Position numbers and translations under genes: made by a program
Part shown: in pieces, positions 5,620 to 24,768 of the stretch
Layout of the letters: each line of letters opens with the position of its first letter
How positions within the stretch are numbered: position 1 is the first letter of the stretch
Assembly: GCA_003165335.1 (NCBI GenBank)
Contig: PLTD01000227.1
Span: 1 to 39,570, forward strand
Origin: Rhodospirillales bacterium
Lineage (GTDB): Bacteria; Pseudomonadota; Alphaproteobacteria; BOG-932; Roseiterribacteraceae
DNA: 39,570 bases
Reading direction: 5' to 3'
Notes under the pieces: model-generated
What the model saw: the letters and a program-made list of their open reading frames with translations, nothing else
Database searches by the model: none
Told to the model about the DNA's origin: nothing

Positions 5620-6752
5620 GCCGCGATTTCCTTGATCGATGTTCTTATCGGAGGCAGAACCGGGTGGGCGGCTATTTCGGCGATAACAAGTTCCGCGAAT
5701 CTTTCCGCGGCGTCGGGGCGACCCTCCTGCCGTGCGGCTTCTGCCGCCCGCGCCAGCGTATCGGGGCGTGACGCCAATGCGGCAATGCGATCAGCCAGAA
5801 ACTTGGGCGTCAGAATGCGCTGGCTAATGACCCAGCCAGCTCCCCTTTGAGTGAAGGCTTCGGCATTGCTTGTTTGATGATCGTCAGTCGCAAAAGGATA
5901 TGGGATGAGGATTGCGGGTCGTCCGGCGACGCCGAGTTCGGATACTGTTGAAGCACCCGATCGGGTGATGGCCAAATGGCAGGCAGCTAACCGAGCGGGA
6001 ATATCCGCGAAGAATGTAGCAAGCTCCGCGTCGACGCCGGCAGCGCTGTATTGAGCCGCAACATCGGAGATGTCTTCCTGCCTGCATTGCTGAACGATCT
6101 TTAGACGCGCTTTCAAACTCGGAGGGAGCATTGCCGCGGCGCTTGGCACGACCTCGCTTAAGATTCTGGCACCCTGGCTTCCGCCGGTGACCAGGATAGA
6201 AAACGGCCCATCTGTGGTCGGCGGGATATAAGGTTCTGCGCGAACGTGAATTATATCGGAACGAACTGGGTTACCGATCAACGTCGTCCGTCGACCTGCT
6301 GGAACCCCTGCGACAGATTCGAACGACGTTGCGATGGTTCGCGCACGCGATGCCAAACGGCGGTTGGCGCGGCCCAATAGCGCGTTCTGCTCATGCAACA
6401 CAATCGGGATTTTTCGCAGCGATGCCGCGAGCACTGTGGGGATTGATGGGTAACCACCGAACCCAACAACGAGTGCGGGGTTAAGTTTGCCAAGCAGACT
6501 GCGGGCCTCAAGTCCACCTAGCCCCATCTCGATCACTGCTCGCAAGCGGTCGATTGTATGGCGGGGCAATCGGCTGGCTCGAATGCGATAGACCTCAACC
6601 GATGTCAGATTATCACCAAATGCCTGGCCACGCTGGTCGGTAATGAGTGCTACCCTGACGTGCCGGGCAATCAGCGCTCGAGCCAAAGCTTCAGCCGGGA
6701 ACATGTGGCCGCCTGTGCCTCCCGCAGCGAGTATGACGAGCGGTTCGGTCAC
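5616..6752 (-). CDS. murG: UDP-N-acetylglucosamine--undecaprenyl-PP-MurNAc-pentapeptide transferase MurG
   Basis: Adds GlcNAc to lipid I to form lipid II at the cytoplasmic face of the inner membrane. The 378 residues form a GT-B glycosyltransferase. The N-terminal loop [13 protein letters not shown] is at 11-23 and [12 protein letters not shown] lies in the acceptor domain. The donor-domain signature SQGARILSE is followed by the [22 protein letters not shown]-type UDP-binding region. It overlaps ftsW and murC by four bases each. Length is slightly above the roughly 355 residues of E. coli MurG, with extra residues at the C-terminus. Confidence 0.97.
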
Positions 6753-7888
6753 CTCGACTCACTTCCGGGGAAGCGAGTTCGAGTCAAGGCAAGCGCCATA
6801 CCTGTTCCCATTCCCAGAGCCAGCATCGACGACCCGCCATAGGAAATGAAAGGCAGCGTCATCCCCTTTGCCGGCAAAAGATGCAGAGACGATCCCATAT
6901 GGATGAGTGCCTGCAGACCGAATTGCGTAAATAGTCCGCCGACTGCGAGCACGACAAAGAGGTCCGAATCTTTCAGTGCGCGCGCAAAGCCGCGGAGCAC
7001 GATGAAGCCGAACAACGCGACAATGAATAGAGTCGCGGCGAGTCCCAGTTCTTCGCCTGCAACTGCGAATATGAAATCCGCATGGGCATCTGGGAGTGAG
7101 AGCTTAACGGTTCCCTGGCCGGGACCAGTGCCGGTCAAACCACCGTGAATGAAGGCTTCGAGGGATCGATCGACCTGGTATGTATCGCCCGAGGCGGGAT
7201 CGAGGAAGCGATCTATACGGCTGGCAATATGCGGAAATATGAAATAGGCGCCCACTAACCCGCCGACCGCCATCACCGCCAGTGCTAGGACGAAAACGAT
7301 CGGCAATCCGGCTAGAAAGAACTCTGCAAACCAGATCGCCGTACAAACAAACGTCATCCCGAAATCGGGTTGCAGCATCAGCACCAGGACAACACCAAGG
7401 AACGCGACTATTGCCAAGAAATATCCGGGAAAAAACTGCCCTGAGACCCGTGCTGCGTGCTGGCGAGCGAACAGCCAAGCACTGACAACGGCAAAAGCTG
7501 GTTTTAGGAATTCTGAAGGTTGGAGTGACAATGGTCCCACCGAAACCCATCGCGTCGCACCCTTGATTTCGTTTCCAGCGACTAAAGTGAGCGCGGTCAG
7601 CAGGTAGAAGATAACGAACGCCCCAAGTGCCAGTCGTCGCACACCGCGGGGACTCAAAAGAGATACGCCCAACATCAGGACCAAGGTCGGCACAAGCATC
7701 ACGGCCTGATGGATTACGAAATAAAACGTCGGCAAGTGAATGCGTTCCGCGACCGAGGGGCTTGCCGCCGTTACCAGCAAAGCACCGACCCCAATCAGAA
7801 CTGCCAGGGCCACAAGGGTCCAGCGATCGACCGTCCACCACCAACGGCCTACGATTGAATGGTCAGTGCGTGCAAAGGCCGCTGTCAT
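6749..7888 (-). CDS. ftsW: Septal peptidoglycan glycosyltransferase FtsW
   Basis: SEDS-family polymerase that works with FtsI to build septal peptidoglycan. The ATG at 7888 forms an ATGA overlap with the murD stop, so I start here rather than at upstream in-frame codons that would add a non-membrane extension. That gives 379 residues with about ten membrane helices. Family motifs are seen: GATRWVSVGPLSLQPSEFLK, the loop FAVAGEELGLAATLFI, and FISYGGSSMLALGMGTGM near the end. The acidic residue essential in the SEDS family lies in the large loop, but I cannot assign it with certainty by eye. Confidence 0.96.
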   Translation of the reverse strand: MTAAFARTDHSIVGRWWWTVDRWTLVALAVLIGVGALLVTAASPSVAERIHLPTFYFVIHQAVMLVPTLVLMLGVSLLSPRGVRRLALGAFVIFYLLTALTLVAGNEIKGATRWVSVGPLSLQPSEFLKPAFAVVSAWLFARQHAARVSGQFFPGYFLAIVAFLGVVLVLMLQPDFGMTFVCTAIWFAEFFLAGLPIVFVLALAVMAVGGLVGAYFIFPHIASRIDRFLDPASGDTYQVDRSLEAFIHGGLTGTGPGQGTVKLSLPDAHADFIFAVAGEELGLAATLFIVALFGFIVLRGFARALKDSDLFVVLAVGGLFTQFGLQALIHMGSSLHLLPAKGMTLPFISYGGSSMLALGMGTGMALALTRTRFPGSESR

Positions 7889-17159: not shown

Positions 17160-17358
17160 AGCAACGGAGAAACGTAGTAGAGCTTAAGTGCTCACAGGAT
17201 AAAATTTGCGCCGCGACGCTAAATCAGATCCTTTTATGTGACCAAAGCCCGCACGAACGAAATTGGACAAAGTTTTTCCGAAGAAATGTTCTTGTTGTGT
17301 TCCGTTCCCCTATTTTAGGTGTTGCAAAAAGTATGTCGGGATCGTGAAGGCAAATAAT

Positions 17359-17775
<417 letters not shown>

Positions 17776-19390: not shown

Positions 19391-19415
19391 GGAACCCTGC
19401 GCGGTCGAGAAGGCT
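19391..19415 (+). promoter_or_regulatory. Degenerate EcfG-type promoter upstream of ecfG
   Basis: GGAAC at 19391-19395 is followed after 16 bases by GGCT (19412-19415), one base off the GGTT seen at the better sites in this window. Autoregulation of ecfG is common in the family, so the position in the EamA-ecfG gap is suggestive. It leaves about 95 bases of untranslated leader. Confidence 0.3.
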
Positions 19416-19515: not shown

Positions 19516-20145
19516 ATGGAAGCCAAAAGAATGGTTCCCGACGACAAGGACAACAACCATTCCCAGCCACGACCGGGCACTGAAGCCGGGTCAGTTTTTC
19601 GGGACGAGTTGGTTGCGTATCTCCCGCATCTACGTGCGGTCGCCCGGGGGCTGACAGGACATCGTGATCGAGCGGACGACTTGGTTAACGATACAGTTCT
19701 CAAGGCATTGTCGGCGGAAGCGCAGTACCAACCAGGCACAAATCTAAAAGCTTGGCTTATGACGATTCTGCGCAACCATTACATAAACGGGCTCCGGCGT
19801 ATGCGGATCGAGGTGGAAACAATAGGGGATATTCCTGAAGCGGCTCTTCCGAGTGCTCCGAACCAAGAACATGTGGTTGAGGTTAATGAGATTGCGGCAG
19901 CTCTCCTTCGAATGTCGCCGGAGCACCGCGAAATCCTCGTTCTGGTTTCGGCTGCGGGACTTAGCTACGAAGAGGCGGCTGATGTTTGCGGTTGTGCAGT
20001 TGGCACGATCAAGTCCCGGCTGAATCGTGCACGTAGTGAATTGAGGAGGGTTTTAGCGTTGTCTCATGGATTGGCAGGGGAGCCGCGTCGAGACGGATTG
20101 GGACGTGAAGGGCTACCAGTCGCCCGTCGGGGTGAATCACGCTGA
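19516..20145 (+). CDS. ecfG: General stress response sigma factor EcfG
   Basis: ECF sigma factor that directs RNA polymerase to GGAAC-type stress promoters and is held inactive by NepR. From the ATG at 19516 it has 209 residues. Region 2 is at about 30-98, with the core-binding/-10 helix RADDLVNDTVLKAL and WLMTILRNHYIN. Region 4 is at about 126-180, with RMSPEHREILVL and the recognition helix CAVGTIKSRLNRARSEL. The frame is open upstream to 19348, but that part lacks family character and would run into the EamA gene. An ATG at 19528 is an alternative. phyR follows 212 bases downstream on the same strand. Confidence 0.92.
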   Translation: MEAKRMVPDDKDNNHSQPRPGTEAGSVFRDELVAYLPHLRAVARGLTGHRDRADDLVNDTVLKALSAEAQYQPGTNLKAWLMTILRNHYINGLRRMRIEVETIGDIPEAALPSAPNQEHVVEVNEIAAALLRMSPEHREILVLVSAAGLSYEEAADVCGCAVGTIKSRLNRARSELRRVLALSHGLAGEPRRDGLGREGLPVARRGESR

Positions 20146-20357
20146 GAGCGCGGAATACATTTTAATTTGTGAGGCGAGTACTCATTTTGCCACCGATATG
20201 GACCCTAAGCGTGATTGCCGGGTTTATGCCATATTGGTTCGATAGAATTTTCAGCAGGACGTGTAAGTCGATTCCACCTTAGTCTGCTACCGAAATATTG
20301 ATGAATGCCACGTCAGTGTTGAGCGCTGACGGCGAAAAATGAAATGAGGTCGTGTTT

Positions 20358-21146
20358 ATGAGCGTCTCCCACGATATTGTCCGCCTATTGCCCTACCTGC
20401 GCCGCTATGCACGAGCTTTAACAGGAGCGCAATCGACAGGTGATGAGTATGTTCGTCTCTGTCTCGAAGCGATTCTTGCCGAACCTGAAAGGATCAAGAA
20501 AGCCAACGACTTGCGCGTAGAGCTTTTCGCTGTCTTCCACGACGCCTGGGGTGCCGTTGACAGCGCGGTTCCCGCTGCTCGGGGTGAGGGCAGTGGACTA
20601 AACCGCCAGTTGGCTGCGCTACCTTCAATTGAACGCCAAGTTTTGCTGCTCATCGCATTGGAGAGATTTTCAACCTCCGAGGCGTCGCAAATATTAAAAC
20701 TCGATGAGACGGATGTCGTGCGCAAACTGGACGTCGCAAGGCAGGAATTGCGGCGACAAGCGACTGCACGCGTGCTGATAATCGAAGATGAGCCCGTTAT
20801 TGCCATGGATATCGCAGGAATTGTCGAATCTCTTGGGCACGAAGTTATTGGAATTGCGGGGCGACACGCCGAAGCAGTTGAACTCGCACGTCAGTACCAA
20901 CCAGGGTTGGTACTGGCTGATGTGCAGCTACAAGATGGCGACAGCGGCATTTTAGCCGTTCAGGAGATCATGCGCTCCATGGATGCGCCCGTGATTTTCG
21001 TAACGGGCTTTCCTGAACGGCTTTTGACGGGCGACCGAGTTGAGCCAGCCTTTATTGTCACCAAACCATTTGATCAGGAAACATTGAAAGTGGCGATCGT
21101 TCAGGCGTTATCATTCTCAGTGCCCCCACCTTCCAAGCGGATATAG
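20358..21146 (+). CDS. phyR: Anti-anti-sigma response regulator PhyR
   Basis: Master switch of the alphaproteobacterial general stress response: when phosphorylated it binds NepR and frees EcfG. The 262 residues combine an N-terminal sigma-like domain (about 1-130, IVRLLPYLRRYARALTG and LPSIERQVLLLIALE) with a C-terminal receiver domain. Receiver residues are the acidic pair E143/D144, phospho-acceptor D188 in LVLADVQL, T216 in FVTGF and K236 in TKPF. The ATG at 20358 has GAGG eight bases upstream. A GTG two codons earlier is the other option. The gene converges on nepR with 57 bases between. Confidence 0.95.
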   Translation: MSVSHDIVRLLPYLRRYARALTGAQSTGDEYVRLCLEAILAEPERIKKANDLRVELFAVFHDAWGAVDSAVPAARGEGSGLNRQLAALPSIERQVLLLIALERFSTSEASQILKLDETDVVRKLDVARQELRRQATARVLIIEDEPVIAMDIAGIVESLGHEVIGIAGRHAEAVELARQYQPGLVLADVQLQDGDSGILAVQEIMRSMDAPVIFVTGFPERLLTGDRVEPAFIVTKPFDQETLKVAIVQALSFSVPPPSKRI

Positions 21147-21203
21147 CCTGAGTGCGCTAATAGCGCGTCGTGCCATTGCCTAGATCTCCATAAAATCGTC
21201 AAG

Positions 21204-21386
21204 CTAATCCTTTAACTTTTCTGAAATCAGCTGGATTAAATCGTCGGGAATCGGTTCATCGAGAACGGAGTTGTAGGCGCTACGCAGTTTCGTTTCTAGC
21301 CAAACATCAAATCCTGTCGCATCCCCATTTACAGCGTTTTTACTACTTCCGGGCATCTTGCGTCGCAATTTCTGCTTCTGTTCCAC
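21204..21386 (-). CDS. nepR: Anti-sigma factor NepR
   Basis: Small protein that sequesters EcfG and is itself captured by phosphorylated PhyR. The 60 residues end with the conserved NepR core: FDVWLETKLRSAYNSVLDEP (about 26-45), then IPDDLIQLISEKLK. The N-terminus is short and basic, as in the family. The start is GTG at 21386 with GGAGGG five bases upstream. It is transcribed against phyR and ecfG, whereas in most relatives nepR sits directly upstream of ecfG on the same strand, so here anti-sigma and sigma are not co-transcribed. Confidence 0.88.
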   Translation of the reverse strand: MEQKQKLRRKMPGSSKNAVNGDATGFDVWLETKLRSAYNSVLDEPIPDDLIQLISEKLKD

Positions 21387-21561: not shown

Positions 21562-21586
21562 GGAACCAACATCGGAAGCGTGGGTT
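21562..21586 (+). promoter_or_regulatory. EcfG-type promoter GGAAC-N16-GGTT in the nepR-yqjD gap
   Basis: GGAAC (21562-21566), 16 bases, GGTT (21583-21586): the same architecture as the two sites at 24278-24302 and 24744-24768. Transcription would begin near 21593. The next solid gene starts at 21862, leaving a leader of about 270 bases, or else serving a small transcript. The predicted start falls beside an ATG (21594) opening a 13-codon frame (MSIEKLESTDQHS). A second GGAAC at 21794 has only CGCA at the right distance. The 475 bases from 21387 to 21861 hold no other gene I can support. Confidence 0.55.
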
Positions 21587-21861: not shown

Positions 21862-22152
21862 ATGGCGTCACATGATGTCGAAGGTGAATATAGTGCTGTG
21901 AAGGAAGATTTGGCCAAGTTGCGCAGTGATGTTGCGAGTCTAAGCGCAGCCCTCAGGGATCTGACGTCAGAAACAGTGCACGAGCGAATCGACTCACTTC
22001 GTAGCAGCGTCGATCATCTGGCTGGCGATGCGAAGAACCAAGGAAAACAAACGCTGGACGATTTGGCCAGCCATATCGAAGATCGCCCTCTAGCTAGCAT
22101 GATGATTGCGCTTGGAGTGGGAATCTTGCTCGGTCGGTTGATCGATCGATGA
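21862..22152 (+). CDS. YqjD/ElaB-like (DUF883) membrane-anchored protein
   Basis: The 96 residues show a charged helical N-terminal part (DLAKLRSDVASLSAALRDL, then HERIDSLRSSVDHLAG) and a single C-terminal membrane helix at about 76-93 (MIALGVGILLGRLID). This is the layout of the YqjD/ElaB/DUF883 family, whose E. coli members are stationary-phase, RpoS-dependent, ribosome-associated inner-membrane proteins. Its place inside the stress island, 41 bases before a YqjE-like gene, matches the yqjD-yqjE pairing. A GAGGAGA ribosome site precedes the ATG. Confidence 0.8.
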   Translation: MASHDVEGEYSAVKEDLAKLRSDVASLSAALRDLTSETVHERIDSLRSSVDHLAGDAKNQGKQTLDDLASHIEDRPLASMMIALGVGILLGRLIDR

Positions 22153-22192: not shown

Positions 22193-22735
22193 GTGAGCGG
22201 ATTTTTGTCGCAGATTCTTCGCAGCACCTTCTCCATTCTGGTCAATACTGCTGAAATTTACATTGGTAGTGCTTTGGTCAAAAAAGCCAAAGAACGGCTA
22301 GTTGGACTCATCGCATTATACGCTCTGCTGACCGTACTCTCACTCGCAGTCGTGACTTTCTTTTTCATATTTTTGTACCGCTGGCTTTCTGTTCGAGTGA
22401 ATGGAGAGTACGCGGCCGCAATCTTGTGCGGCGCCAGCCTTTTCGTAATCATAGCAATCCTGATCTGGCGCAAGCTCTCGCAACGCCGGCGAAAGATTCC
22501 CGAACGCCGCGCAATTGGTGGTCTCGTCGAGACGCTCGCTAGTGTATTGGAGGCGCAGGATCCAAATTTGGAGGCCGGATTGGCTTTGGGTCGTCGGTTG
22601 CGCGATAAGCTGAAAAATGTGACACCCGAACTCGTTATCGCGGCCGTACTCGTGGGCCTGATAATTGGAGTCCGCCCTGAGGTCCTGGGGTCATTTCACC
22701 GAGAAGACCCGGAATCGAAAAAGACTGGTCAATAA
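22193..22735 (+). CDS. YqjE/phage-holin-superfamily-like membrane protein
   Basis: A 180-residue membrane protein starting at GTG 22193. Two strong helices are at about 41-62 (LSLAVVTFFFIFLY) and 77-95 (ILCGASLFVIIAILIW), and a weaker hydrophobic stretch is near 145-160 (LVIAAVLVGLIIGV). The middle is basic (KLSQRRRKIPERR). The two-helix hairpin after a YqjD-like gene points to the YqjE/DUF1469 group. Function is unknown. It is probably co-transcribed with the preceding gene. Confidence 0.65.
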   Translation: MSGFLSQILRSTFSILVNTAEIYIGSALVKKAKERLVGLIALYALLTVLSLAVVTFFFIFLYRWLSVRVNGEYAAAILCGASLFVIIAILIWRKLSQRRRKIPERRAIGGLVETLASVLEAQDPNLEAGLALGRRLRDKLKNVTPELVIAAVLVGLIIGVRPEVLGSFHREDPESKKTGQ

Positions 22736-22750
22736 AACGCAACGATTACC

Positions 22751-23794
22751 TCATACTGCCCAGGCGTATTTTCGCACTGCATCGCTTGGTATGGCGTAAG
22801 GTTTATACTTGTTGACGAATTCGATCATGACAACGGTTCCCGGTGGCCCGCTGATTGTCAAAGTGCCGTCGACTTGGCGGGCGAATGCCTTGATCAGTGA
22901 CATGCCCAAGCTTGATTGCGTCCCCTGAGCGAGCGCTTGAGCGTCGGTCAAACCTACCCCATTATCTTCAACGCTGAACCGCACGACGGAATCTGGCATT
23001 GACTTCAGCACAATCCTTATCACGCCCTGTCGCCCCTGCGGGAACGCATGCTTCAGTGCGTTGCTCATTGCTTCTGTCATAAATAACGCTAGCGGAACTG
23101 CTCTGTCGGAGACATCCCAAACTGATTCCGCATCGACTTCGATCGCAACCTGCTCCTCGGAAATCCCGTAAGACAGCTGTAGGCTTGCTGCGAGCTCCTT
23201 TAGGAATGCCCCTAAGTTTACTGACTGCAAATCCTCACTCTCGTAAAGATAGCGGTGTACGAGAGCCAATGCTCTTACACGAGTCTGTATGTCGTTGAAC
23301 GCGCGCTTAGCTCCGTTGCCTTCGACGGCTTTCGCTTGAAGATTTAATAGGCTGGTAACAATTTGGAGATTGTTTTTTACGCGATGATGAATCTCGCGCA
23401 TCATCGCCTCGCGCGTTTCGACTGCGTCGCGCAACTCGCCCTCACGACGATCGATGCGCACGGCCATCTCGTTAAACATTGCGGATAGATTCCTCAGTTC
23501 TGCAGGCCCAATCAGCGGCAGGCGAGAGGAGAGATCGCCATTGCTATATGCTTCGGCGGCACGAATCAGACGACGCATTGGGCGACTGATCTGAATGTCC
23601 GTAGCAAACCACACAACACCGACCGCCACGAGTGATAGTGCAATTGGTCCTATTACTAGAAGGGCGCGCGCTACCGTCTGTTGGTTGGCATAGGACCAAC
23701 CTAACAATATCGTATAGTCAACAACCGGTAAGAGAAGAAGCGAGAGCGCCAACGTTAACCGAAAGCGGACGCTGCGAACCCGATTAAGGGACAT
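22751..23794 (-). CDS. HisKA_2-family sensor histidine kinase (possible PhyR kinase)
   Basis: A 347-residue membrane kinase. Two helices (about 14-32 and 43-65) are separated by only some ten residues, followed by a HAMP-like linker (RPMRRLIRAAEAYSNGDL, 71-88). The HisKA_2 dimerisation helix carries the probable phospho-acceptor H137 in EIHHRVKNNLQ (134-144). The ATPase domain has TEAMSNALKHAFP (N box) and EDNGVGL (G1). Kinases of this class phosphorylate PhyR in other Alphaproteobacteria (PhyK, PakF), and the gene sits 1.6 kb from phyR, so a role in this pathway is likely. No sensor domain is visible, and how it receives a signal is unclear. Confidence 0.85.
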   Translation of the reverse strand: MSLNRVRSVRFRLTLALSLLLLPVVDYTILLGWSYANQQTVARALLVIGPIALSLVAVGVVWFATDIQISRPMRRLIRAAEAYSNGDLSSRLPLIGPAELRNLSAMFNEMAVRIDRREGELRDAVETREAMMREIHHRVKNNLQIVTSLLNLQAKAVEGNGAKRAFNDIQTRVRALALVHRYLYESEDLQSVNLGAFLKELAASLQLSYGISEEQVAIEVDAESVWDVSDRAVPLALFMTEAMSNALKHAFPQGRQGVIRIVLKSMPDSVVRFSVEDNGVGLTDAQALAQGTQSSLGMSLIKAFARQVDGTLTISGPPGTVVMIEFVNKYKPYAIPSDAVRKYAWAV

Positions 23795-24277: not shown

Positions 24278-24302
24278 AACCCGCTCGGAGAAGATTGGTT
24301 CC
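24278..24302 (-). promoter_or_regulatory. EcfG-type promoter of the glycine-zipper lipoprotein gene
   Basis: Minus-strand GGAAC (24302-24298), 16-base spacer, GGTT (24281-24278). Transcription would start near 24271, giving a 22-base leader that contains the GGAG ribosome site and then the ATG at 24248. Spacing and position are ideal for the alphaproteobacterial general stress sigma factor (family consensus GGAAC-N16/17-[CG]GTT). Confidence 0.75.
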
Positions 24303-24479: not shown

Positions 24480-24662
24480 TCAGATGGCTGGTGGCGGACG
24501 GCGACCAACTACAAGATGCCAGACCAACGAAATGAGAAATAAAATTAAGAAAATGACGAACAGAATTTGCGCGATGGACACGGCGCTTCCGGCGATGCCA
24601 CCGAAACCCAACGCAGCAGCGACAATAGCGATTAAGAAAAAAGTAATTGACCAACCAAGCAT
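24480..24662 (-). CDS. DUF1328 small membrane protein
   Basis: A 60-residue hydrophobic protein beginning [20 protein letters not shown], with [19 protein letters not shown] as a second helix: the classic two-helix DUF1328 (YtjA-like) pattern. It ends in a short basic/proline tail. Function is unknown. Homologues are commonly stress-induced. An EcfG-type promoter lies 82 bases upstream and a strong terminator lies downstream, so it appears to be a monocistronic member of the stress regulon. Confidence 0.85.
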
Positions 24663-24743: not shown

Positions 24744-24768
24744 AACCCCGGTCAGAGCCACTGGTTCC
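24744..24768 (-). promoter_or_regulatory. EcfG-type promoter of the DUF1328 gene
   Basis: Minus-strand GGAAC (24768-24764), 16 bases, GGTT (24747-24744), identical in form to the site before the lipoprotein gene. The start would fall near 24737, giving a leader of about 75 bases to the DUF1328 ATG at 24662. It lies between the DUF1328 gene and the converging 3' end of the peroxiredoxin transcript. Confidence 0.72.

Follow-up and report, generated by a model that had tools for sequence, protein, structure and literature searches.

The Core Locus

The window, i.e., the whole stretch of 39,570 nucleotides analysed here (a Rhodospirillales bacterium, contig PLTD01000227.1 of assembly GCA_003165335.1), carries genes for an EcfG-type sigma factor, the response regulator PhyR and the anti-sigma factor NepR. 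All three genes are intact and are arranged as ecfG> phyR> <nepR, with the coordinates and strands given in the first-pass annotation. The locus and its surroundings comprise the following features:

17356-17774, - strand: RNase P class A RNA gene (bacterial; RNA family search)
19391-19395, + strand: GGAAC element 5' of the sigma gene, conserved in the genus
19516-20145, + strand: sigma factor gene of EcfG type (ECF15-like), product 209 aa (Pfam, NCBIfam, tree, best PDB match 5uxx)
20200-20224, + strand: putative phyR promoter of EcfG type, GGACC-N16-GGTT with a single mismatch, conserved within the genus
20358-21146, + strand: phyR, for a 262-aa response regulator (anti-anti-sigma factor) that has an N-terminal sigma-like domain (Pfam, NCBIfam, alignment)
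21147-21203, no strand: convergent gap of 57 bases between the phyR stop and the nepR stop (terminator scan)
21204-21386, - strand: nepR (nepR1), anti-sigma factor, 60 aa (Pfam)
21562-21586, + strand: EcfG-type promoter match, GGAAC-N16-GGTT, before the DUF883 gene, in 5/5 family genomes
21862-22152, + strand: DUF883-like glycine-zipper protein gene (below Pfam cut-off; synteny)
22193-22735, + strand: holin-superfamily-III-like membrane protein gene (below Pfam cut-off; synteny)
22751-23794, - strand: HAMP-HisKA_2 sensor kinase gene, PhyK-like (Pfam, NCBIfam, synteny)
24278-24302, - strand: EcfG-type promoter match before the YMGG glycine-zipper gene (motif search)
24744-24768, - strand: EcfG-type promoter match before the DUF1328 gene (24480-24662, - strand; motif search)

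RNase P was the single RNA family matched around the locus. Comparisons within the family rely on five genomes assigned by GTDB to two genera: the window genus (G000, which contains the window, G001 and G002) and a sister genus (G003 and G004).

The sigma gene product contains Sigma70_r2/r4_2 domains (Pfam), its top NCBIfam models are sigma-factor models with scores under their cut-offs, and 5uxx is its best solved relative. In a sigma tree of 45 rows the five family copies form a single clade (support 100/97), which is placed weakly (95/72) with L174, the EcfG of a canonical locus, among nepR-linked EcfGs; the deep branches of this tree are weak and the deep position of the window sigma among EcfGs is poorly resolved. 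The window sigma is classed as an EcfG/ECF15 factor and groups with nepR-linked EcfGs. PhyR shows the Pfam domains PhyR_sigma2, PhyR_sigma-like and Response_reg and is recognized by NCBIfam as a PhyR-family anti-anti-sigma factor (322 bits versus a cut-off of 240). Its receiver domain is C-terminal and has the phospho-acceptor Asp, and D144, D188, T216 and K236 are kept in 10/10 aligned PhyRs, with D188 and K236 invariant; no relative in the named collection is closer than 55% identity. The nepR product matches NepR PF18557 with 33.1 bits (cut-off 25.7), and the GTG start of its gene is conserved in 5/5 family genomes. Mutation of the Sphingomonas melonis NepR showed that L32 and Y36 matter for activity (PMC6599016), and both residues (S. 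melonis numbering) are present in 9/9 family NepRs.

Judging from the protein families and the contact residues that are conserved, NepR would bind the sigma factor and phosphorylated PhyR would bind NepR, by which the sigma factor would be freed. The retention of L32 and Y36 indicates that this partner switch is most likely ordinary. The HAMP-HisKA_2 kinase is a candidate upstream kinase of the switch; it has 347 aa and no recognised sensor domain in the window, whereas its counterpart in the sister genus (L053:5552-7234) is 560 aa long and also has a dCache sensor domain. A single-domain response regulator is found beside the locus kinase in the sister genus.

Gene Order in the Family and in the Class

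The order ecfG> phyR> <nepR is common to 5/5 family genomes. In all five the DUF883 and holin-like genes then adjoin nepR, and the HisKA_2 kinase gene comes next wherever the contig extends far enough (3/4 relatives; the contig of G001, a genome that is 65% complete, stops within the holin-like gene). Chance is excluded as the cause of the order because the same order occurs in all four family relatives, and what had been taken for an oddity of one genome is in fact standard among its close relatives (4/4). That an assembly or binning artefact produced the order is virtually impossible: the window genome is indeed a draft of 265 contigs with an estimated contamination of 4.5%, but the order recurs in the assemblies of all four relatives, of which one consists of 3 contigs, and this refutes the explanation.

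The class sample combined 80 named loci from a PhyR-profile scan with about 50 loci that came from surveying NepR across the class, classified with home-made profiles. Among 119 phyR loci classified in this sample, which is skewed to Rhizobiales and Sphingomonas and whose loci are not independent, 77 have the order <ecfG <nepR phyR> and 16 the order <nepR phyR> ecfG>, a few showing other orders; phyR> <nepR occurs in none of the 110 loci outside the family in which phyR and nepR are found together. The departure from the usual <ecfG <nepR phyR> layout pointed out by the first-pass annotation is thereby upheld, as phyR> <nepR appears in no other sampled lineage. The separation of nepR from ecfG, also regarded there as unusual, is already standard in Sphingomonas (<nepR phyR> ecfG>). 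The window genome itself does not appear to be that of a sphingomonad, since G016, which is Sphingomonas-like in its EcfG and gene order, shares only the class with it. No description of the phyR> <nepR order was found in the available parts of the open-access literature on nepR/phyR and "convergent", an absence that constitutes weak evidence.

The locus resembles the canonical phyR/nepR-ecfG locus of Rhizobiales and Caulobacterales in its three protein families with their conserved functional residues, in the EcfG-type promoters at the locus and in the presence of a HisKA_2/HWE kinase nearby. It differs in that the nepR and ecfG of canonical loci form one operon, nepR first, which diverges from phyR, whereas in the window ecfG and phyR share a direction and nepR converges on phyR. 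With the Sphingomonas nepR/phyR-ecfG locus it shares a nepR that is apart from ecfG and a phyR and ecfG on the same strand; however, in Sphingomonas nepR is divergent from phyR and ecfG lies downstream of phyR, while in the window ecfG lies upstream and nepR is convergent. The order amounts to an old rearrangement of a known system, specific to this lineage, and not to a new mechanism.

Promoter Matches and the Supply of NepR

EcfG-type promoters were searched as GGAAC-N16/17-[CGT]GTT, a motif with a background of 4.7% per 350 bases. Before phyR, the sister genus has a perfect GGAAC-N17-CGTT and the window genus a degenerate motif with one mismatch inside a conserved block. The motif precedes the DUF883 gene throughout the family and is also found near the YMGG and DUF1328 genes; the DUF883-like and holin-like proteins are likely members of the stress regulon. 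The GGAAC element before the sigma gene, a possible site of autoregulation, is conserved as TTGGAACC in the three window-genus genomes, with a poor -10 part.

The strict motif precedes nepR in 0/5 family genomes, and consensus search found no conserved sigma-70 promoter before this gene. In published canonical loci the nepR-ecfG unit and phyR are each preceded by an EcfG promoter (PMC4814048), in contrast to the window nepR, at which no EcfG-type match was found. The strict motif was detected before nepR in 49/77 canonical loci and in 14/16 Sphingomonas-type loci, the latter again unlike the window; the absence in the family is weak evidence, as its five genomes are not independent and 28/77 canonical loci also have no strict motif.

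Sigma and anti-sigma genes are usually co-transcribed, which fixes their ratio. In this family phyR and the neighboring target genes have EcfG-type promoter matches, while nepR is uncoupled from ecfG and has no such match, so that the locus would lack the usual provision of NepR, which is driven by the sigma factor and coupled in translation. The feedback of expression, rather than the switch itself, was most likely altered by the rearrangement, as the distribution of motifs points to.

In the sister genus (L053:8306, L055:2124) the EcfG-type promoter of the DUF883 gene has its -35 element immediately next to the nepR start codon of the opposite strand, and sigma binding at this promoter might interfere with nepR expression.

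The Convergent Gap

The 57-base gap between phyR and nepR was recovered as first described, and no intrinsic terminator was found in it. Convergent gaps measure 30-99 bases across the five family genomes. Within the window genus none was found to contain an intrinsic terminator, the terminator-like sites of the congeners lying inside nepR only, whereas the gaps of the sister genus bear a strong GC-rich terminator-like hairpin followed by a T tail. The hairpin of G003 is AAAAAGGCCGGCGAGAGCCGGCCTTTTT (region z-scores -3.5 and -5.0) and that of G004 is similar (z -2.1 and -2.5).

These gaps bear on the proposal that phyR transcripts run into nepR as antisense and lower NepR under stress, the convergent layout being a regulatory device. 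The short gaps in all five genomes, the window gap devoid of a terminator-like site and the location of congener sites within nepR are compatible with it. However, a missing intrinsic terminator does not prove read-through because Rho may act, and the sister genus, whose order is identical, has its strong hairpin precisely in the gap; the order is therefore not dependent on read-through, and antisense provides no shared reason for it. We regard this explanation as very unlikely, and there is no sequence evidence that the read-through suggested by the first-pass annotation is functional. The accompanying suggestion of a changed sigma/anti-sigma stoichiometry receives indirect support only, from a nepR with no EcfG-type promoter match and from an orphan second nepR, described below.

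A Second NepR and Additional Sigma Factors

Another NepR-family gene, a possibility raised at the outset, does occur in the window genome, on contig C109 and with no sigma partner; searches of this draft of 265 contigs brought up no further intact nepR-ecfG operon. The additional genes are:

C109:11051-11128, gene L045:10925-11143 (G000, contig C109): nepR2, orphan second NepR-family gene of the window genome
L145:9207-9410 (G002, contig C310): nepR2, orphan, orthologue of the G000 gene in a congener
L046:10049-10636 (G000, contig C93), also L048 and L051: gene for a third EcfG-like sigma factor, detected in the window genus only

In G000 and G002 nepR2 sits between phhB and hemA, 18 bases from hemA in G000. 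The same phhB-hemA interval of the sister genus contains an overlapping, canonical nepR2-ecfG2 pair in which ecfG2 adjoins hemA. Within the window genus ecfG2 is matched best by the window sigma (52%) and the C93 type (46%), and ecfG2 is therefore absent from both well-covered genomes of this genus. The simplest history would be that ecfG2 was lost and nepR2 retained in the window genus; the second NepR would then derive from a canonical nepR2-ecfG2 operon kept whole in the sister genus. R33 is retained by the NepR2 of the sister genus, but the orphan nepR2 product has V or S at this position. Both nepR1 and nepR2 appear to be under purifying selection (wherever dS could be estimated, dN was far lower), and the product of the orphan nepR2 is probably an additional regulator of the NepR type.

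Second NepR-like genes located off the core operon are also represented by S. melonis NepR2, the NepR homologues of Methylobacterium extorquens and RsiA2 of Sinorhizobium meliloti, the last of which offers an earlier example of a NepR that is not under sigma control (PMC4814048; PMC6599016). In contrast to these paralogues, the orphan nepR2 of the window genus arose, as synteny shows, when ecfG2 was lost from a canonical nepR2-ecfG2 operon located between phhB and hemA.

A motif GGAAC-N16-TGTT lies 78-83 bases 5' of the third sigma gene in 3/3 window-genus genomes, which suggests that this sigma factor is downstream of the first. The C93 sigma might share the role of the window sigma, and it may be a relocated ecfG2, a point that the sigma tree does not resolve.

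The canonical, overlapping nepR2-ecfG2 pair of the sister genus leads to a different reading of the locus, in which the window sigma is a diverged EcfG paralogue (EcfG2-like), the true NepR-controlled EcfG of the family was the one linked to nepR2, and the locus in the window would be a secondary module. The poorly resolved deep placement of the window sigma would allow this, and an interaction of NepR with the second EcfG was not seen in Caulobacter crescentus and Sphingomonas (PMC3892343). However, both well-covered genomes of the window genus have been left with the window sigma and the C93 type as their only close sigma relatives, and the window sigma lies beside a NepR and the only strong full-length PhyR found in each genome in 5/5 cases. 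On these grounds this reading is unlikely.

Origin and Significance of the Rearranged Locus

We consider it probable that the window contains the alphaproteobacterial general stress core locus, which underwent a single rearrangement before the family split into its two genera and has been maintained since as ecfG> phyR> <nepR, with a switch that is most likely the usual one and an expression feedback that has most likely changed. A stronger version, in which the switch itself was rewired, nepR having left EcfG autoregulation while phyR stayed in it (net positive feedback) and the orphan NepR2 having been recruited as a second PhyR brake, is tentative and on balance doubtful. A family in which the coupling of sigma and anti-sigma genes was broken and is still broken, and in which an anti-sigma factor appears to have outlived its sigma factor, provides a natural test of coupling and autoregulation in partner switches.

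The class-wide comparison also yielded two records from Steroidobacteraceae (L068 and L069, ~5970-7771; a Steroidobacter MAG and Peristeroidobacter soli JW-3) that contain a complete <ecfG <nepR phyR> locus. The EcfG-NepR-PhyR system has been described as confined to Alphaproteobacteria (PMC3892343), and Steroidobacteraceae is a gammaproteobacterial family; no open-access literature naming Steroidobacter together with PhyR was found. In the sigma tree the Steroidobacteraceae sigma sits on a long branch among EcfGs of the Rhizobiales type, which suggests horizontal transfer.
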